DNA from: an uncultured Monoglobus sp.
GTDB taxonomy: Bacteria > Bacillota > Clostridia > Monoglobales > Monoglobaceae
Direction: 5' to 3'
NCBI GenBank assembly: GCA_947585115.1
Contig: CANPWW010000016.1
Span: 1-40,573, forward strand
DNA: 40,573 bases
The notes below the pieces were generated by a model, which saw nothing but the letters and a program-made list of their open reading frames with translations, ran no database searches and was not told the origin of the DNA. Below, one piece after another: positions 33,132 through 40,573 of this stretch. A program made the position numbers and the translations under genes. How positions within the stretch are numbered: position 1 is the first letter of the stretch; each line of letters starts with the position of its first letter.

Positions 33132-34841
33132 ATGTCAGACAATGAAAATACTGTTTCAAACGATATCGAGGATTATATCAAAGAAGAAACAAAAGAAGAA
33201 GCAAAGAGCGTCGAGGCGCCGAGCCGCGCGGAGAAGGCCGCGGAAGCCGCGACGAAAAACGAAAAAAAGGCTCCCGAAAAAACAAAATCGAACAAAAAAA
33301 GAAAAAAATCACATAAGCCCGCGATAATAGCGGGCTGCGCTGCGGGTATCATCGCGGTTGCCGCGATAGGTTACGGCGCGTATGTTAACGCGTACGACAA
33401 GATAATGCCGAATACCTATATCGACAACGTTGAGGTCAGCGGCATGACCCAGGCGGACGCCGCGGAAGCTTTAAACGCCGCGTTCAGTCCGGACAAAATA
33501 GCGGACAAAACCATCAACTTCCATTGTATGGACTCAAGCTCGACAATAAACATCGATAACCTTTCGATGGTATTTGAGCCCGATAAAATGGCGAGCGACG
33601 CGTATAACGCGGGACGCGAAAATCCCGGATTTATGAGCAAACTCAAAAATTTCACAGCCGGTCTTTTCTCAAAGAACACGCTGCCCCCCGCGGTTTCATA
33701 CGACGAGCAGGCGCTTACGGGTGCTATAAGCGATCTGTGCTCGCCATATGAGAAGGAACCTCTGGGCTATACCTACAGACTGGGCGACGGAGACAGCATC
33801 ATTATCGCGAAACCCCAGCAGGGCATAAAGGTCGATATGAACACTGCCGTAAGCAGCGTTCTTGATCAGATATATACCTTTAATTTCGGCGACGTTACAT
33901 TTGAGCCGCTGATAACGGACGCGGAACCGCTCGATTTGGACGCTTTTTATAATTACATCACGGCTCCGGCGGTGAACGCGTCATACGCCAAGGACGAGAA
34001 CAACAAAGTATACGTTGTGCCCTCAAAGCCTCAGATCGTTGTGAGCAAGGCCGATATCGAAAAGGCGGTCAACCAGCCCGAGACAGAGTACAGCGTTCCG
34101 GTTCAGCTGATCCAGCCCGCGGCGGACACCGCGTTTCTGCAAAGCATAATGTACGAGGACACGCTGGGATCCTATACCACTTCATACGGCGGCAGCAGCG
34201 CCTCAAGGTCAAACAATATCTCGGTAAGCTCAAACACGATAAGCGGACTTGAACTGCTTCCGGGCGAGAGGTTCGACTTCAACAAGGTAGTGGGCGAGAG
34301 AACGCCCGGCCGCGGATATCTGCCCGCGCCGGTTTATGTGGTAAAGGGCGGCGAGACCGTCAGCGAGACTGATTACGGCGGCGGAATATGCCAGGTTTCA
34401 TCCACGATATACTGCGCGGTAAGGAGAGCGGGACTTGACGTGATCGAGCGCACATCACATTCAAAGGGCGTTTCATACGTGCCGCAGGGCATGGACGCGA
34501 CCGTATCTTGGGGCGGACCCGAGTTTATATTCGAAAACAGCACCGAATACCCAATAAGGATATTCGTGTCGGCGGGCGGCGGCACGCTTACGGTAAGCAT
34601 AGTGGGCTCGAATGTGTCACTCCCCGACGAAAAAATAGACGTTGTGAACGACGGCAATAACGTTGTGGCGACAAAGACCGTTACCAACGATGACGGCAGC
34701 GTCAGCCAGGAGGTGTTCGACAGCGCCAATCCTCCGCTTCCACCTCCGACTGAGATCGCACAGGCAGCGGCGGACGCCGAAACCGATGCCGACGTCGGAA
34801 CCGAATCCGAGCCGGAATCGGAATCGGAACAAAGCGAATAA
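33132..34841 (+). CDS. VanW family membrane-anchored protein with putative peptidoglycan-binding domain
   Basis: The 569-residue protein begins with a highly charged Glu/Lys-rich cytoplasmic tail (1-60), then one TM helix (about 63-85). Residues about 90-330 read as two PG_binding_4-like copies (TYIDNVEVSGMTQADAAEAL). About 345-480 is the VanW domain (GGGICQVSSTIYCAVRRAGL and RTSHSKGVSYVPQGMDATV). The tail is Pro/Glu/Asp-rich. VanW-type proteins occur in vancomycin-resistance clusters and widely as wall proteins in Clostridia; the reaction is unknown. No van genes are nearby, so resistance should not be inferred. GGGGTGA lies 6 nt before the ATG. Confidence 0.88.
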   Translation: MSDNENTVSNDIEDYIKEETKEEAKSVEAPSRAEKAAEAATKNEKKAPEKTKSNKKRKKSHKPAIIAGCAAGIIAVAAIGYGAYVNAYDKIMPNTYIDNVEVSGMTQADAAEALNAAFSPDKIADKTINFHCMDSSSTINIDNLSMVFEPDKMASDAYNAGRENPGFMSKLKNFTAGLFSKNTLPPAVSYDEQALTGAISDLCSPYEKEPLGYTYRLGDGDSIIIAKPQQGIKVDMNTAVSSVLDQIYTFNFGDVTFEPLITDAEPLDLDAFYNYITAPAVNASYAKDENNKVYVVPSKPQIVVSKADIEKAVNQPETEYSVPVQLIQPAADTAFLQSIMYEDTLGSYTTSYGGSSASRSNNISVSSNTISGLELLPGERFDFNKVVGERTPGRGYLPAPVYVVKGGETVSETDYGGGICQVSSTIYCAVRRAGLDVIERTSHSKGVSYVPQGMDATVSWGGPEFIFENSTEYPIRIFVSAGGGTLTVSIVGSNVSLPDEKIDVVNDGNNVVATKTVTNDDGSVSQEVFDSANPPLPPPTEIAQAAADAETDADVGTESEPESESEQSE

Positions 34842-34845
34842 CCAC

Positions 34846-34875
34846 AAACCGCCCGCGAAAACTGCGGGCGGTTTT
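34846..34875 (+). terminator. Terminator-like hairpin between the VanW-family gene and ribU
   Basis: AAACCGCCCGC and GCGGGCGGTTT form an 11-bp stem with a 7-nt loop, but only a short T-run (TTTT) follows. The ribU ATG is 26 bp downstream, leaving no room for a separate promoter. It may be a leaky terminator that lowers expression of ribU. Confidence 0.75.
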
Positions 34876-34901
34876 AAACAAAATATTAAGGAGAACGCGC
34901 T

Positions 34902-35495
34902 ATGAAATCAAATAAAACAATCACCACAAGAATGATCGCCTCGGTGGCGGTATGCGGAGCGGTTTCGTTCGTGCTTATGATGCTGGACTTTCCGCTGCCC
35001 ATCGTGCCGAGCTTTGTTAAATTCGACTTTTCCGAGCTGCCGGCGCTGATTTGCGCCTTCGCGTTCGGCCCGATCGCGGGCGTTTTGGTCGAGCTTATCA
35101 AAAACCTGCTCCACCTTTTTATGACCTCAACCGCAGGAGTCGGCGAGCTCTCGAATTTTATTCTGGGCTGCTGCCTGACGCTGCCGGCCGGAATAATATA
35201 CAAGCGCAACAAAACGCGCCGCACCGCGCTTTTGGGAATGCTCGCCGGAACTCTGTGCTTCGGCGTAGTCAGCCTGTTTTCCAACTATTTCATAGTGTTT
35301 CCGTTTTACATCAACGCGATGGGTTTTCCGCTTGACGCCATAATCAAAATGGGCACCGATATCTCACCGATATTTGACAGCGAGTTCAAGCTTATCGCCC
35401 TCTCGATCGTGCCTTTTAATTTATTAAAGGGTCTCGTGATCTCACTGCTCACCTTCCTGCTCTACAAGCGGCTGAGACCGATTCTCAAAAAATAA
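34902..35495 (+). CDS. ribU: ECF transporter substrate-binding (S) protein, RibU-type
   Basis: The 197-residue membrane protein has about six hydrophobic segments and RibU-family features: VKFDFSELPALICAFAFGPIAGVLVELIKN is the conserved loop (residues about 43-72, read here in parts), followed by a GVGELSNFILG motif. Known RibU proteins bind riboflavin and need the shared EcfA/EcfA'/EcfT module, which is not in the window. AAGGAG lies before the ATG. No FMN riboswitch precedes it. A different vitamin substrate is possible. Its stop is 2 bp from the stop of the convergent DUF896 gene. Confidence 0.8.
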   Translation: MKSNKTITTRMIASVAVCGAVSFVLMMLDFPLPIVPSFVKFDFSELPALICAFAFGPIAGVLVELIKNLLHLFMTSTAGVGELSNFILGCCLTLPAGIIYKRNKTRRTALLGMLAGTLCFGVVSLFSNYFIVFPFYINAMGFPLDAIIKMGTDISPIFDSEFKLIALSIVPFNLLKGLVISLLTFLLYKRLRPILKK

Positions 35496-35497
35496 CC

Positions 35498-35668
35498 TCA
35501 GTCCACGATCTCGATATTGTCGAGCTGCGCCTTGAGGTTCCTGCGGACATCCGCCAGGTACTCGTTTCTCAGCGCGGCTCTTTCTTTTGTCTCAGCCTCG
35601 GTGAGCCCGCCGTGGCTCTTCGCTTTCTTAGCAAGCTCATTGATTCGCTTGATCTTTTCCTGCGTCAT
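35498..35668 (-). CDS. DUF896 (YnzC/UPF0291) small protein
   Basis: The 56-residue product (MTQEKIKRINELAKKAK, then GLTEAETKERAALRNEYL) matches the DUF896/YnzC family, short helical-hairpin proteins; the B. subtilis relative lies next to the SOS gene yneA. AGGAG lies about 10 nt before ATG 35668. The first 32 bp overlap the 3' end of the GTPase-NYN gene in another frame, so it is probably translationally coupled to it. The biochemical role of the family is unknown. Confidence 0.85.
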   Translation of the reverse strand: MTQEKIKRINELAKKAKSHGGLTEAETKERAALRNEYLADVRRNLKAQLDNIEIVD

Positions 35669-38312
35669 AAAAATTCAACTCCTTTTCCATGCGGTTTTCC
35701 AAGGTTCCGCTGAGGCCGAGCGATTTCATATAGTCTTTTATCTCACTTTCGGCCTCTTTGATCTCGGCTCTCAGGTCGGAGGCCGAGATCCGCAGGGCGC
35801 CTCCGCCCAGGATTATCAGCTGCTCCAATCCGTCGGACGTCGCCACGCGGACGCGGTTGTTTTTGCTCAGCCTGTGAGAGGTCTTTTCGATATACATATC
35901 GGCGGTCTCACGCTCCTTTGTGTACACAATGTCAATATTGTGGTAGCGCTCGACCTCGCCGGGGTTGTTTTTCACTTTATACGCGTCATATACAAGTATC
36001 ACCTCGCACTTTTTGAAGCCGCGGTAGTTGCACAAAATGTCCGCCAGCTTCATGCGCGCCGTCTCCATGCTGTCGTCCGCGTATTTTTCGAGCTCGTCCC
36101 ACGCGAAAATTATATTGTAGCCGTCGACCAGAAGATAATCGTCCCCGTTTTGCCTTCTTTTCGCGGCGGCGGACGCGCGGCTTACGCCCTTCGGCGGCGC
36201 GGAAGGCATAACAGCACTTGAGCGCCGCGCAGGCTCATCGCTCGCTGTCTCGCGTCTGATCGGACCGTATGTCCGCTCGAATATCCGCATAAGCTCCTTG
36301 TCGGCCGCGATGCTGTCCACAAACTCTCTCGCTCTCGCGCGGCCCTCTATCGCCCGAGGCTCCTCGGCCCGTTTGAGCTCGCTCTCAAGGTGCATATGCT
36401 CGGGCACCTCGTCCCAGCGAACCGGATAGCCCGCGCCGTGGGAACAGAAAACCGAGTCGGCCGTGTTTTCGGTATCGGCGTCGCAGTCGTAGCCTATTTC
36501 CTCAATAACGCTTTCCGCGTCGGCGCATGGGAAATATCCGCCGGGAATGCAGGAAAACCTGCCTCTTCCTCCGCTGTACGCCGCCAGCTCGGCCGCGTAG
36601 TCGACCATTCCTCTGACCGGCGCCGAGCCGGTTATTATCGAGTTTTCGCCGTCGGTCTCGGGCGGATTTATCCGTCCGCCCGCCGTGATAACGTCGTTCA
36701 TCGCCCTGCCCACGCAGTCGGTCGGCACCTCGATACGCAGCTCGTACCACGGCTCGAGCAGCACGCTCTCAGCCTGCCTGAGGCCTTGGCGCACCGCCCT
36801 GTAGGTCGCCTGTCTGAAGTCGCCGCCCTCGGTGTGCCTTTTGTGGGCGCGGCCCGACGCCAGCGTTATTTTCATATCGGTTATCGGCGAGCCCGTCAGC
36901 ACGCCCAGATGCGTCTTTTCTTTAAGGTGCGTCAATATCAGCCGCTGCCAGTTTCTGTCCAGGTTGTCCTCGCCGCACTTTGAGGCGAACCGCAGTCCGC
37001 TGCCCGGCTTGCCCGGCTCCAAAATCAAATGCACTTCGGCGTAATGTCTCAGCGGCTCATAGTGGCCCACGCCCTCGACGATGTTTTTGATCGTCTCTTT
37101 GTAGGCAATACTGCCGCGCACAAATTCCACGTCCATATTGAACCGCTCGCGTATAACGCGGCTCAACACCTCGGTCTGGATCTCGCCCATCAGGCGTATC
37201 TGTATCTCGCGCAGCTGCTCGTTCCATATTATGCCGAGCTGCGGCTCCTCTTCCTCAAGTATCCGAAAATTTCGGAGCGCCGCGTGAATATCGGTGCCCT
37301 CGGGCAGCCGCGCCGTGTACGCCAGCACGGGGCTGAGCAGCGCCGCTTTTGAGTTGTGCTCGGCCCCCAGACCCTGACCCGGATAAGATCGGGTCAGGCC
37401 CTGGACCGCGCAGACAGTCCCCGCCTCGGCGGTGTCGGCCGTCGTAAATTTCTCGCCCGAGTATATCCTGATCTGGTCGATCTTTTCGCTCCACTCGGTG
37501 CCGTCACGGTCCTCGCCGTCTATCATATCCTTGACCTTGAGCGCGCCTCCGGTTATTTTCATGTGGGTCAGGCGCGTTCCGCGCTCGTCCTCGGATATCT
37601 TGTACACCCTGGCGCCGAACTCTTTTTTGTATTCCGGCATGACCGAATATTCCGAGAGAGCGTCAAGCAGCTCCTCGACGCCCTCGCATCTCAGCGCGGA
37701 ACCGAAAAATGTCGGGAAGATCTCGCGCTTTTTTATAGCGCGGCGCAGCATATCCGCGTTTATTTCCCCGCCCTCGAGATAGGCGTTCAATATCTCCTCG
37801 TCGCACATCGCGGCGCTCTCCGAAAACTCGGGCGTGCCGATCTCGGAAAAATCGAGGCAGCCGTCGCTCAGACGCTTTTTGAGCTCACCGCTCAGCTTTT
37901 CGCGCCCCATGCCGTTTAAGTCCATTTTGTTCACAAAAATAAATGTCGGGATGTCGTATCGCTCAAGCAGCCGCCACAGCGTATCGGTGTGGCTCTGGAC
38001 CCCGTCGGTCCCGCTGATGACAAGCACCGCGCAGTCCAAAATCGACAGAGCGCGCTCGGTCTCCATTGAAAAATCCACGTGCCCCGGGGTGTCGACCAGA
38101 GTGAATCGGGTATCGCCGCGCATAAGCTGCGCCTGCTTTGAAAATATCGTGATGCCGCGGTCGCGCTCGATAGCGTTGGTGTCGAGAAAGGCGTCGCCGT
38201 GGTCGACCCTGCCGCGCCTACGTATCTCGCCGCTCAGGTACAGCAAAGCCTCGGACAATGTCGTCTTGCCCGAGTCCACGTGAGCCAATATTCCGAAAAC
38301 GATTTTTTTCAA
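35637..38312 (-). CDS. TetM-like ribosomal GTPase fused to a Rae1/YacP-type NYN endonuclease
   Basis: About 891 residues. The N-terminal 690 are an EF-G paralogue of the TetM/TetO class: AHVDSGKTT (G1), RGIT (G2), DTPGHVD (G3), NKMD (G4), a long beta/EF-G region, and a domain IV-V part (LLEPWYELRIEVP). TetM proteins bind the ribosome at the A site and eject tetracycline. A Ser/Pro/Ala linker leads to about 165 C-terminal residues matching YacP/Rae1: DYLLVDGYNIIFAWDEL, VILVYDAY, YTKERETADMYIEK, RVATSDGLEQ, GGGALRISASDL. B. subtilis Rae1 is a ribosome-associated NYN nuclease that cuts mRNA in the A site, and its acidic active-site positions appear kept. TTG 38312 has AGAGGTGA 5 nt upstream; GTG 38321, overlapping the phosphatase stop, is the alternative. 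Tetracycline resistance is unproven. Confidence 0.9.
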   Translation of the reverse strand: MKKIVFGILAHVDSGKTTLSEALLYLSGEIRRRGRVDHGDAFLDTNAIERDRGITIFSKQAQLMRGDTRFTLVDTPGHVDFSMETERALSILDCAVLVISGTDGVQSHTDTLWRLLERYDIPTFIFVNKMDLNGMGREKLSGELKKRLSDGCLDFSEIGTPEFSESAAMCDEEILNAYLEGGEINADMLRRAIKKREIFPTFFGSALRCEGVEELLDALSEYSVMPEYKKEFGARVYKISEDERGTRLTHMKITGGALKVKDMIDGEDRDGTEWSEKIDQIRIYSGEKFTTADTAEAGTVCAVQGLTRSYPGQGLGAEHNSKAALLSPVLAYTARLPEGTDIHAALRNFRILEEEEPQLGIIWNEQLREIQIRLMGEIQTEVLSRVIRERFNMDVEFVRGSIAYKETIKNIVEGVGHYEPLRHYAEVHLILEPGKPGSGLRFASKCGEDNLDRNWQRLILTHLKEKTHLGVLTGSPITDMKITLASGRAHKRHTEGGDFRQATYRAVRQGLRQAESVLLEPWYELRIEVPTDCVGRAMNDVITAGGRINPPETDGENSIITGSAPVRGMVDYAAELAAYSGGRGRFSCIPGGYFPCADAESVIEEIGYDCDADTENTADSVFCSHGAGYPVRWDEVPEHMHLESELKRAEEPRAIEGRARAREFVDSIAADKELMRIFERTYGPIRRETASDEPARRSSAVMPSAPPKGVSRASAAAKRRQNGDDYLLVDGYNIIFAWDELEKYADDSMETARMKLADILCNYRGFKKCEVILVYDAYKVKNNPGEVERYHNIDIVYTKERETADMYIEKTSHRLSKNNRVRVATSDGLEQLIILGGGALRISASDLRAEIKEAESEIKDYMKSLGLSGTLENRMEKELNFYDAGKDQANQ

Positions 38313-38317
38313 AACGA

Positions 38318-38794
38318 TCACCTCTGCCGCGCCCGATATTCTTTTCCCGTAAGCTCCTTAAAAAGGCCGCTCAGGCCCCTCATTATGTCGTCGTATGTGA
38401 CTTCGAAATTACCCGTGTACCACGGGTCCGCCACATCGTCATAACTCCCGGCGAACTCGAGCATCTTTTTGACCTTGCCCTCCGGGTCGCCGCCGAAGAT
38501 CCTGTTGATATTGCGTATGTTGGCGCTGTCCATGCCGATGAACAGATCGTATTTGTCATAGTCGGATTTGAGAAGCTTCCGCGCCCGCTTGCCCTTGGCG
38601 GAGATCCCCTGCTCGGCCAGCTTGCGCTTGGTGCCGGGGTGCACGGGGTTCCCGATTTCCTCATAGCTGGTGGCCGCCGACTCGATCAGAAAATCATTTT
38701 GGAGCCCCGCCTTTTTCACCATATCCTTGAACAAAAACTCAGCCATAGGCGATCTGCAAATATTGCCGTGGCAGATGAACATTATTTTAACCAT
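38318..38794 (-). CDS. Low-molecular-weight protein-tyrosine phosphatase
   Basis: The 158-residue enzyme has the N-terminal P-loop FICHGNICRSPMAE (C-x5-R-S) and the C-terminal general-acid DPWYTGNF segment. Both are diagnostic. In Gram-positive bacteria such enzymes counteract tyrosine kinases that regulate polysaccharide export, or dephosphorylate arginine in the McsB/YwlE system; which applies is not clear. The ATG at 38794 fits known N termini; the ribosome site is GGGAGG or the closer GAGGAG. Its stop overlaps or abuts the start of the GTPase-NYN gene, so they form one operon. Confidence 0.93.
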   Translation of the reverse strand: MVKIMFICHGNICRSPMAEFLFKDMVKKAGLQNDFLIESAATSYEEIGNPVHPGTKRKLAEQGISAKGKRARKLLKSDYDKYDLFIGMDSANIRNINRIFGGDPEGKVKKMLEFAGSYDDVADPWYTGNFEVTYDDIMRGLSGLFKELTGKEYRARQR

Positions 38795-38844
38795 TCTCCT
38801 CAAAACCTCCCAAATCAACGTATTTTCGGCGTTTACAGCGATTT

Positions 38845-38895
38845 TTAAATTTTCGGAGACTTAACTTTTTGTCTCGTTTTCTCACTTTTTACCAT
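38845..38895 (-). CDS. Possible 16-codon micro-ORF at the element/host boundary
   Basis: ATG 38895, with GAGGGTGA 6 nt upstream, opens a frame for MVKSEKTRQKVKSPKI that ends 50 bp before the phosphatase start. It is basic and has no known match. The good ribosome site is the only support; it may be a chance ORF or a leader peptide. Confidence 0.25.
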   Translation of the reverse strand: MVKSEKTRQKVKSPKI

Positions 38896-38910
38896 GTAGT
38901 TTCACCCTCA

Positions 38911-38961
38911 TTTTCTGTAAAAGTTCTGTAAATTCATAACGATTTTTTATAATTTACAGAA
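38911..38961. repeat. Candidate integrase arm-type sites / end of the integrative element
   Basis: TTCTGTAAA occurs at 38913-38921 and 38924-38932 (period 11 bp), and inverted as TTTACAGAA at 38953-38961. The last two extend to an 11-bp inverted repeat TTCTGTAAATT/AATTTACAGAA. It lies 20-70 bp past the int stop. Tn916-type integrases bind 11-bp direct repeats near the element ends, so this is a candidate terminus; a hairpin terminating int transcripts is an alternative. Confidence 0.5.
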
Positions 38962-38981
38962 AATTTTTGATTAAATATAGT

Positions 38982-40184
38982 TCAAATAACTACGTCATTT
39001 AGTTTCCTTATCTCGTCTTCAATGTTGTCAAATTCAACGTGCGTGTAGGTATTAAGGGTGACACTTATATCGGAATGCCCCATCAAATATTGCAAGTATT
39101 TCGGATTAATGCCGGTACTTGCCATATGACTGCAATACGTGTGTCTACACACATGAGGCGTTATTTTAGGTATCTCTTTTTTATAAATATCATTGTATTT
39201 TTTCACCATATGTTGAAAATAATGCTCCCAATGCATCGCAACCATAGGCATGTGATTTTTGTCCAAATATAAAAAACCGGCATGACCGTTTATTATAGGT
39301 TCATTTCTGTAATTTCGGTTTCTTAATATTTTGTCGAAACACTTGCAAACATCATCTGTTATCGGAATTACCCTTGTTCCGGCTTCCGTTTTGGGTTTTT
39401 CGATTATATATGTCATGTCACTGCCTCTCAAAAGCTGTTTATTGATAGTAACACGTTTATTTTTCAAATCAATGTCCTTAACCGTCAGTCCTGTAAACTC
39501 CGATATGCGCATTCCTGTATAAAACAAAATATAAATCGCTTCATAGTATCTGCTGAAATGCTCGTCGTTTTTCACAAAGTTAAGGAATAGTCGCTTTTGT
39601 TCGTGAGTGATAGCATCACGACGCACCGAGTCATTTACAATAACATTTACAAGCGGAAAATCAAACGGGTTTTTTCTAAGAACATCATCATCCACGGCCA
39701 TTTGAAAAGCAGGTCTGAGAACCCCTCTTATGGTATGTATGGTACTGTAGCTTTTTCCGTCCTTTTGCTGTAATTTAATCAGCCATATTTTTGCGTCCGA
39801 AATCTTTATTCGGTCGATCTTCACATGTCCGAAAGTTTCACGCTTTAATAAATTTAGTACCGTTTTGTACCCTGTACGAGTTGACGCACGAACACCGGTT
39901 TTTTGCATTACATATTTTTGAGCTAATTCAAGCACTGTTGTACTGTCGCCGTAAGTAACCATTCCGTCGGAAATATCATTTTCGATCTCTTTTTCTTTTT
40001 GTCTGAGAGATTTACAGTTTCGTTTTCCGTACGGCAAAGCATCGGTGTTTTCCAATTTCCAACTGTATACACATCTGTGAATTCCTATCGTGTCAATATA
40101 ATCATATTGATACCTTCCGTCCTCTCGCTGACATTCCCCGTTTCTTAAAACACGTCCTTTCTTATCTCTTCTCTTTTTACTCAT
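38982..40184 (-). CDS. int: Tn916-type tyrosine recombinase (integrase)
   Basis: The 400-residue protein follows the Tn916 Int plan: an N-terminal arm-binding domain (MSKKRRDKKGRVLRNGE, QREDGRYQYDYID, VYSWKL), a core-binding domain (about 90-190), and a catalytic domain with the Arg in TGMRISEFTGL (near 226), KPKTEAGTR, the HVCRH box (near 343), LMGHSDISVTLNTYTH with the second His and the nucleophilic Tyr (near 380). AGGAG lies 8 nt before ATG 40184, favoured over the upstream ATG because it matches the Tn916 N terminus. It integrates and excises the element; xis lies just upstream, as in Tn916. Confidence 0.93.
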   Translation of the reverse strand: MSKKRRDKKGRVLRNGECQREDGRYQYDYIDTIGIHRCVYSWKLENTDALPYGKRNCKSLRQKEKEIENDISDGMVTYGDSTTVLELAQKYVMQKTGVRASTRTGYKTVLNLLKRETFGHVKIDRIKISDAKIWLIKLQQKDGKSYSTIHTIRGVLRPAFQMAVDDDVLRKNPFDFPLVNVIVNDSVRRDAITHEQKRLFLNFVKNDEHFSRYYEAIYILFYTGMRISEFTGLTVKDIDLKNKRVTINKQLLRGSDMTYIIEKPKTEAGTRVIPITDDVCKCFDKILRNRNYRNEPIINGHAGFLYLDKNHMPMVAMHWEHYFQHMVKKYNDIYKKEIPKITPHVCRHTYCSHMASTGINPKYLQYLMGHSDISVTLNTYTHVEFDNIEDEIRKLNDVVI

Positions 40185-40279
40185 ATTTTTAGCTCCTTTC
40201 AATTAAGAAACCATAGCATATGATAAACATAATTGTATCATAACCATGGCATAAAATCTACTATTTTTTAAAAATATTT

Positions 40280-40486
40280 TCATATCGATGTCGTATTGTT
40301 TAAAAAGTCTTCAAATTTTTTTCGATTTATCATTGTTCGGCTGCCATTTTGAACTATGAATTTCTGATCCGAACGCACGCAATCGTTGACTATACGATAC
40401 ATCTTGTTTTCACCGATGTTAAAATATAATGAAGCTTCTTTTACCGTAAGCAGGTACTTTTCCCATATCGGCATACTATTCGACAT
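40280..40486 (-). CDS. xis: Tn916-type excisionase
   Basis: The 68-residue protein resembles Tn916 Xis: IPIWE-like start (MPIWEKYLLTVKEASLYFNIGENKMYRI), a winged-helix MerR-like DNA-binding fold, and a basic end (RTMINRKKFEDFL). Xis bends DNA at the element ends and favours excision. It is 95 bp before int on the same strand. An AGGAGG-like site (AAAGGAGGG in the transcript) precedes the ATG. The rest of the element lies to the right, outside the window. Confidence 0.9.
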   Translation of the reverse strand: MSNSMPIWEKYLLTVKEASLYFNIGENKMYRIVNDCVRSDQKFIVQNGSRTMINRKKFEDFLNNTTSI

Positions 40487-40514
40487 CGTCCGTAACCCTC
40501 CTTTCTCTAAAAAT

Positions 40515-40538
40515 AAAAGACCTTGTTACAGGTCTTTT
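40515..40538. terminator. Hairpin with T-runs upstream of xis
   Basis: AAAAGACCT and AGGTCTTTT form a 9-bp stem with a 6-nt loop. It can act as a terminator in either direction. Lying just before xis, it probably ends the transcript of the preceding element gene outside the window. Confidence 0.7.
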
Positions 40539-40573
40539 ACCGCGAAAAATTATTTTAATACTTTCATTTCTGC

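Follow-up and report, generated by a model that had tools for sequence, protein, structure and literature searches.

The locus described here raises the question of what a translational GTPase does when it is joined to a ribosome-associated nuclease. The window (the whole stretch of DNA analysed) is an entire contig of 40573 bases. It encodes, in a single unbroken frame, a protein with the Pfam domains GTP_EFTU (1.6e-50), EFG_IV (3.1e-19), EFG_C (7.4e-17) and NYN_YacP (residues 730-879, 2.1e-49), in that order (Table 1). The first half has the G1, G3 and G4 motifs and the domains IV and V of the EF2/EF-G family of translational GTPases, and the whole chain has the Tet-NYN composition, a Tet/EF-G-like GTPase plus a YacP-like NYN domain. 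A preliminary description of the locus had proposed two modules in one chain, a GTPase and a complete NYN nuclease; the intact frame and its domains bear this out. Two other EFG_IV proteins are encoded in the genome, with frames of 702 and 619 aa. The former is taken as EF-G, which makes the fusion the third such protein and a divergent one.

The architecture is not new. It has been in print since 2015, when Atkinson (BMC Genomics; PMC4342817) recorded Tet proteins with a YacP-like NYN domain in ten clostridial species and briefly suggested RNase-based resistance. These clostridiales fusions have the same architecture as the one in the window; the available text of that paper does not mention the linker motif, the missing Pro509 tip, the place outside TetM/TetW or the empty site behind rlmB. 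What is added here is how common the fusion is, its apparent single origin, its GTPase subfamily, the constraint on the nuclease, its place as the one YacP-domain gene found in its genome, and the linker motif. The preliminary description knew of no experimental account; none was found in the literature searched, which did not extend to the main Rae1 papers and is not proof of absence, but the fusion itself had already been published.

Table 1. Features of the fusion gene and its immediate neighbours (window positions; fusion residues are all counted from GTG 38321)
Feature	Position	Strand	Basis
Fusion gene, EF-G/TetM-like translational GTPase and YacP/Rae1-type NYN nuclease	35637..38321	-	ORF
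G domain, residues 7-225; HVDSGKTT, RGIT, DTPGH and NKMD all intact	37647..38303	-	Pfam, alignment
Domain IV, residues 403-518	36768..37115	-	Pfam; with a mean consensus frequency of 0.81, the best-conserved part among fused proteins
Tip loop of domain IV, residues 488-506; GRAHxKHTEGGDFRQAT is the pattern in the family	36804..36860	-	Alignment
Domain V (EFG_C), residues 520-600	36522..36764	-	Pfam
Conserved GTPase tail with DSVFCSHGAG, residues 601-648	36378..36521	-	Alignment
Fusion-specific motif DxELxxIFERTYGxI, residues 672-690	36252..36308	-	Alignment, predicted structure
Variable linker, probably disordered, residues 691-728	36138..36251	-	Conservation, predicted structure
YacP/Rae1-type NYN nuclease domain, residues 729-879	35685..36137	-	Pfam, structure-chain match, alignment
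Gene immediately upstream of the fusion, for a low-molecular-weight protein tyrosine phosphatase	38318..38818	-	Context
DUF896 gene, which shares 32 bases with the 3' end of the fusion	35498..35668	-	Context

Two start codons are available. The protein has 894 aa if read from GTG 38321 and 891 aa from TTG 38312, the start given in the preliminary description. TTG 38312 aligns with the ATG of three relatives from the same genus (L010, L012 and L013) and, read by eye, AGAGGTGA lies five bases upstream of it. It is therefore probably the true start, likelier than GTG 38321, and the coordinates first given for the gene, 35637..38312, are probably correct.

The GTPase half has the domain order of TetM, TetO and TetW but only about 30% identity to them. 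The best NCBIfam model is tet_protect, yet it gives no more than 402.6 bits where its cut-off is 775; tet_protect_M_W gives 267.3 bits, with a cut-off of 1100. A positive control, L183, of which 612 residues were scored, reaches 852.9 and 1249 respectively. The tip sequence YSPVSTPADFR, with the Pro509 that has a role in drug displacement by TetM (PMC8161019, PMC7456112), is absent from the aligned fusion family, which has the tip pattern in Table 1 instead. The TetM C-terminus QPRRPNSR is likewise absent; the tail found in its place (residues 601-648) is common to unfused relatives of the fusion. A tree of 54 GTPase rows puts all 32 of its fused rows (chosen from 115) in one clade (SH-aLRT 100), which adjoins two unfused proteins (support 94). 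This fused and unfused subfamily stands apart from the TetM/TetW-type group, in which L183 alone was scored as TetM/W and L184 and L185 have the tip of L183. EF-G has the same fold (Foldseek best match E 8.1e-53, on the first structure model) and a GSYHEVDSS tip; the fusion likewise has a His at the tip position. The 50 Foldseek matches listed for that model are all EF-G-like and are uninformative on the nuclease. The comparisons therefore place the GTPase half in an EF-G/TetM-like subfamily outside true TetM/TetW, and its identification as TetM proper is rejected. "TetM-like", as it was first called, holds for the domain order and is otherwise too loose a label.

The nuclease half aligns to B. 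subtilis YacP (5mq8/5mq9, chains of 181 residues) over its residues 2-139 (E 9.4e-24), including the VDGYN, DA, ETAD and ATSD motifs, and its NYN_YacP score is 168.1 bits against a Pfam cut-off of 24.6. The acidic residues D733, D779, D808, E812 and D830 are invariant in all 115 full-length fused rows (eight additional rows are partial and have no letters at these positions), and their equivalents are invariant in 45/45 stand-alone rows. Neighbouring motif positions vary slightly: E803 is kept in 111/115 fused rows, E805 in 107/115 and S829 in 112/115. In seven pairs of same-genus sequences, all of which include the gene in the window, dN/dS is 0.024-0.055 for the NYN domain (7/7 pairs; dS is saturated in the L012 pair) and 0.034-0.154 for the GTPase half. 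It is 0.084-0.378 for the second linker in the six pairs which give a value. The nuclease is thus evidently under strong purifying selection, and an inactive tail is rejected as an explanation. The motifs had been described as intact, which agrees with these counts; an ordinary TetM with an inactive tail, the case named as fatal to the original interpretation, goes against the sequence evidence on both points.

B. subtilis YacP/Rae1 is described as a ribosomal A-site endoribonuclease (PMC6613710). Its loss suppresses an efp defect, and its known or candidate targets include S1025 and bmrC/bmrD (PMC6613710, PMC11780869, PMC10632193). It differs from the fusion in being a stand-alone protein without a GTPase. 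Homology of the NYN domain to this protein supports the A-site nuclease logic of the preliminary description.

The two halves are joined by long linkers, which vary among the fused proteins except for one segment. Over 116 fused proteins, mean consensus frequency is 0.81 for domain IV and 0.68 for both the G domain and the NYN domain. In the linkers it falls to 0.23 and 0.19, compared with 0.64 for residues 672-690, which lie between them. This segment is in register over the 116 rows, with E676 and I680 each at 0.97 and G686 at 0.91. A rough pattern for it (ELxxIFERTYG) matches 87/123 fused sequences, 0/14 unfused GTPases and 0/45 stand-alone NYN genes; by this comparison the motif is common to fused proteins and not found in the unfused relatives examined. 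An AlphaFold model built with 84 sequences predicts both halves well (mean pLDDT 84.7, pTM 0.67); an earlier model with 17 sequences was poorer (pLDDT 76.2). Model residues 654-682 (model numbering is fusion numbering minus three) are helical at low confidence, and 685-720 have pLDDT below 50; the fusion-specific motif falls mostly inside the low-confidence helix. No fixed arrangement of the two halves can be read from the model at this pTM, which is compatible with coupling or with none.

The fusion is widespread. A full GTPase half and a NYN domain share one ORF in 131 loci (115 distinct sequences), and the fusion is therefore no accident of assembly. It is intact in 79 of the 80 named genome loci, a biased sample in that these are the best-scoring of 580 relatives; the exception, L121, begins at a contig end and is split into two frames. 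All 12 sampled genomes of the genus found in the window match the fusion, one of them (G010) as two frames. Split frames are thus seen in G010 (L144, L190), G375 (L162) and L121; these may be assembly errors or real disruptions. In a draw of 391 genomes from the class, a NYN_YacP match is present in 249, and 172 encode a protein related to the GTPase half (E <= 1e-70). Frame lengths are known for 148 of these 172: 125 have frames of at least 820 aa, 18 have frames of 630-705 aa, and five, including the split G010, have other lengths (554-789 aa). Every genome with a fused-length GTPase frame also has a NYN match (125/125). The fusion is common in the class, with fused-length frames in at least 125/391 genomes. 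A wider draw of 299 genomes from the phylum, counted by the GTPase half only, contains a relative in 22, of which 18 have frames of at least 857 aa.

The relation between the fusion and stand-alone yacP can be examined through gene location and phylogeny. The fusion is the sole PF05991 match in its own genome (the assembly is 90% complete), where rlmB is followed directly by a TIGR00282 gene, with no yacP. A location behind rlmB is usual for Rae1/YacP, though not strict: stand-alone yacP lies directly downstream of rlmB in 39 of 45 loci, which were mostly best-scoring or hand-picked. The fusion does not have this location; an rlmB-like gene does lie at some point within the flanks of two fused loci, L093 and L105. 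A stand-alone NYN gene, among the 63 such frames listed, is also present in just one of the 125 genomes with a fused frame (G364, which keeps both forms); this coexistence is a lower bound, since only the listed frames were counted. NYN matches occur in 11 of the 18 genomes whose GTPase frame has the unfused length, a set that includes G375 with its split fusion. The figures for comparison are 249 of 391 overall and, once genomes with a listed fused frame are set aside, 124 of 266. The domain is therefore not clearly commoner beside an unfused GTPase than elsewhere, and no tie before fusion is visible.

NYN trees have few columns and are weakly resolved. In one (54 fused of 122 rows), a clade with support 99 unites the fused domains with three that stand alone (L047, L207 and L212); in a second (36 fused of 122 rows), for which three long-branch stand-alone rows were left out and the bootstrap had not settled, the same clade has 100/99.7. 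No branch of the best tree separates the fused rows from all others, but the data do not reject a tree in which the fused NYN domains are strictly one clade (p-AU 0.233). L212 sits between an rlmB-like gene and sigH, and L207 is beside sigH. The GTPase and NYN trees together fit a single origin, and the simplest account would be that a Rae1 gene in the rlmB-sigH region was fused once. L047, a stand-alone NYN gene, branches among the fused ones. It lacks an upstream rlmB, and its genome (G282) encodes an unfused GTPase at another place; it is possibly a later release from the fusion. Fourteen unfused GTPases were fetched, with frames of 645-700 aa. G282 and G300 each have separate genes for an unfused GTPase and for NYN relatives, the latter at 58-60% identity.

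There is no conserved operon partner among the 79 loci placed (of 83). The commonest neighbour family occurs in 15/79 loci, in scattered places; this survey used ORFs of at least 70 aa, and flanks were often ended by contig ends. Of 20 loci viewed, eight (L005-L012, each from the genus found in the window) have the phosphatase gene immediately upstream. A DUF896 gene was seen, by a rough pattern, in 3/20 loci viewed (L005-L007, where L005 is the window's own gene). No RNA families were found at gathering score in 34800-40573. A Tn916-type integrase and Xis lie at 38982-40486, near the 5' end of the phosphatase gene, and the right end of the window is inside the Tn916-type element. G+C is about 61% in the fusion and 37% in this element. 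Two same-genus genomes match the window through the fusion up to 38776/38779 and show no match to the integrase in the 7-10 kb beyond; the element was therefore probably inserted there. On the same evidence, the fusion as a part of the element is rejected.

On paused ribosomes, Rae1 is believed to enter the A site. The likeliest reading, with about an even chance of being right, is that the fusion is a chromosomal translation factor, a GTPase-assisted A-site mRNA endonuclease in place of stand-alone Rae1. The GTPase half would bind the factor site of the ribosome as EF-G and TetM do, with the highly conserved domain IV tip entering the A site. GTP hydrolysis would then allow this half to withdraw, and the nuclease, on a tether of about 80 residues which we estimate would let it reach the A site, would enter and cut the mRNA. 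The cut message would decay and the usual rescue pathways would free the ribosome. Against this reading, the A site is expected to have room for only one of domain IV and the nuclease, so that either the steps are sequential or one half is idle. Ribosome binding, GTPase activity and A-site cleavage by the fusion are activities which we infer from the protein families; GTP-driven delivery to stalled ribosomes, as first proposed for the locus, is likewise putative. The order of the steps, the role of GTP, the ribosomes targeted and the function of the linker motif are conjectural. Computed support comes from the architecture, the intact motifs, the constraint on both halves, the frequency of the fusion, trees that fit one fusion event and the lack of yacP behind rlmB. 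A further point against it is that Rae1 of B. subtilis is a separate protein, which shows that a GTPase of this sort is no general requirement. A more elaborate form of the proposal is doubtful, if possible: a GTP-gated A-site mRNase in which the GTPase senses obstructed or paused ribosomes, the TYG linker segment licenses the tethered nuclease to act on the A-site codon, and free Rae1 has been replaced across a large part of Clostridia. To our knowledge, no case has been described of ribosomal mRNA cleavage controlled by a covalently joined translational GTPase. A natural fusion kept across many Clostridia would allow a direct test of such control.

The halves may also work without coupling, the nuclease doing ordinary Rae1 work and the GTPase a separate A-site job, with fusion simply fixing their ratio and bringing both to the ribosome. 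That the halves exist apart, as unfused GTPases and as NYN genes behind rlmB and/or before sigH (and as separate genes in G282 and G300), and that the linkers are long and variable, would suit this account; their union over a broad clade and the retained linker motif go beyond the need of a mere tether, and it is rather unlikely. Maturation of rRNA or tRNA, with the GTPase placing the nuclease on pre-ribosomal particles, was the older prediction for YacP-like NYN domains (PMC4342817) and would suit the position of stand-alone yacP next to the rRNA methylase gene rlmB. Later work described mRNA on the ribosome as the substrate of B. subtilis Rae1 (PMC6613710), and a maturation role is quite improbable here.

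Resistance to tetracycline or another A-site drug, with RNase activity adding to drug release, has the suggestion in print (PMC4342817), the best NCBIfam model and one public record, which names a fusion as TetM/TetW/TetO/TetS family, in its favour. Against it are the scores far under both cut-offs, the separate clade, the replaced tip, the core-gene-like presence in all 12 sampled genomes of the genus, the position outside the neighbouring Tn916-type element, and a same-genus genome (G008) which has a TetM/W-type gene besides the fusion; this role is unlikely. Nucleases that act on the ribosome are common in antiphage and stress-suicide systems, and an antiphage device was among the functions first considered for this locus. 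That idea is weakened by the lack of any PADLOC defence family matching the fusion (0 at E 0.001), of conserved neighbours in the loci placed, and by its presence in all 12 sampled genomes of the genus, and such a device is very improbable. The fusion is probably neither a tetracycline-resistance nor an antiphage protein.

Cargo of plasmids or phages was also considered. The NYN query matched 23 plasmid and 12 phage records, of which four were examined; two of these are fusions on large replicons of Clostridia. One record, an UNVERIFIED faecal "Bacteriophage sp." scaffold (L245, MT835563.1), has a full fusion frame of 878 aa at 56% identity together with bacterial-looking genes, and is probably a bacterial contig. 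A C. difficile "plasmid" record (L217, NZ_CP149721.1) has a chromosomal-looking order, gltX-cysS-thyX-rlmB-yacP-sigH-tuf-ribosomal proteins; 11 further C. difficile plasmid records were also matched. On the four records examined, plasmid or phage cargo is rejected. A 252-kb replicon of Agathobacter rectalis (L246, NZ_CP143948.1) carries a fusion annotated as a TetM/TetW/TetO/TetS family resistance protein. Counts of resistance genes may include such fusions, since this one is named for tetracycline resistance although its subfamily is without the drug-displacing tip. Genes close to this fusion carry the annotations CopG antitoxin and BrnT toxin.
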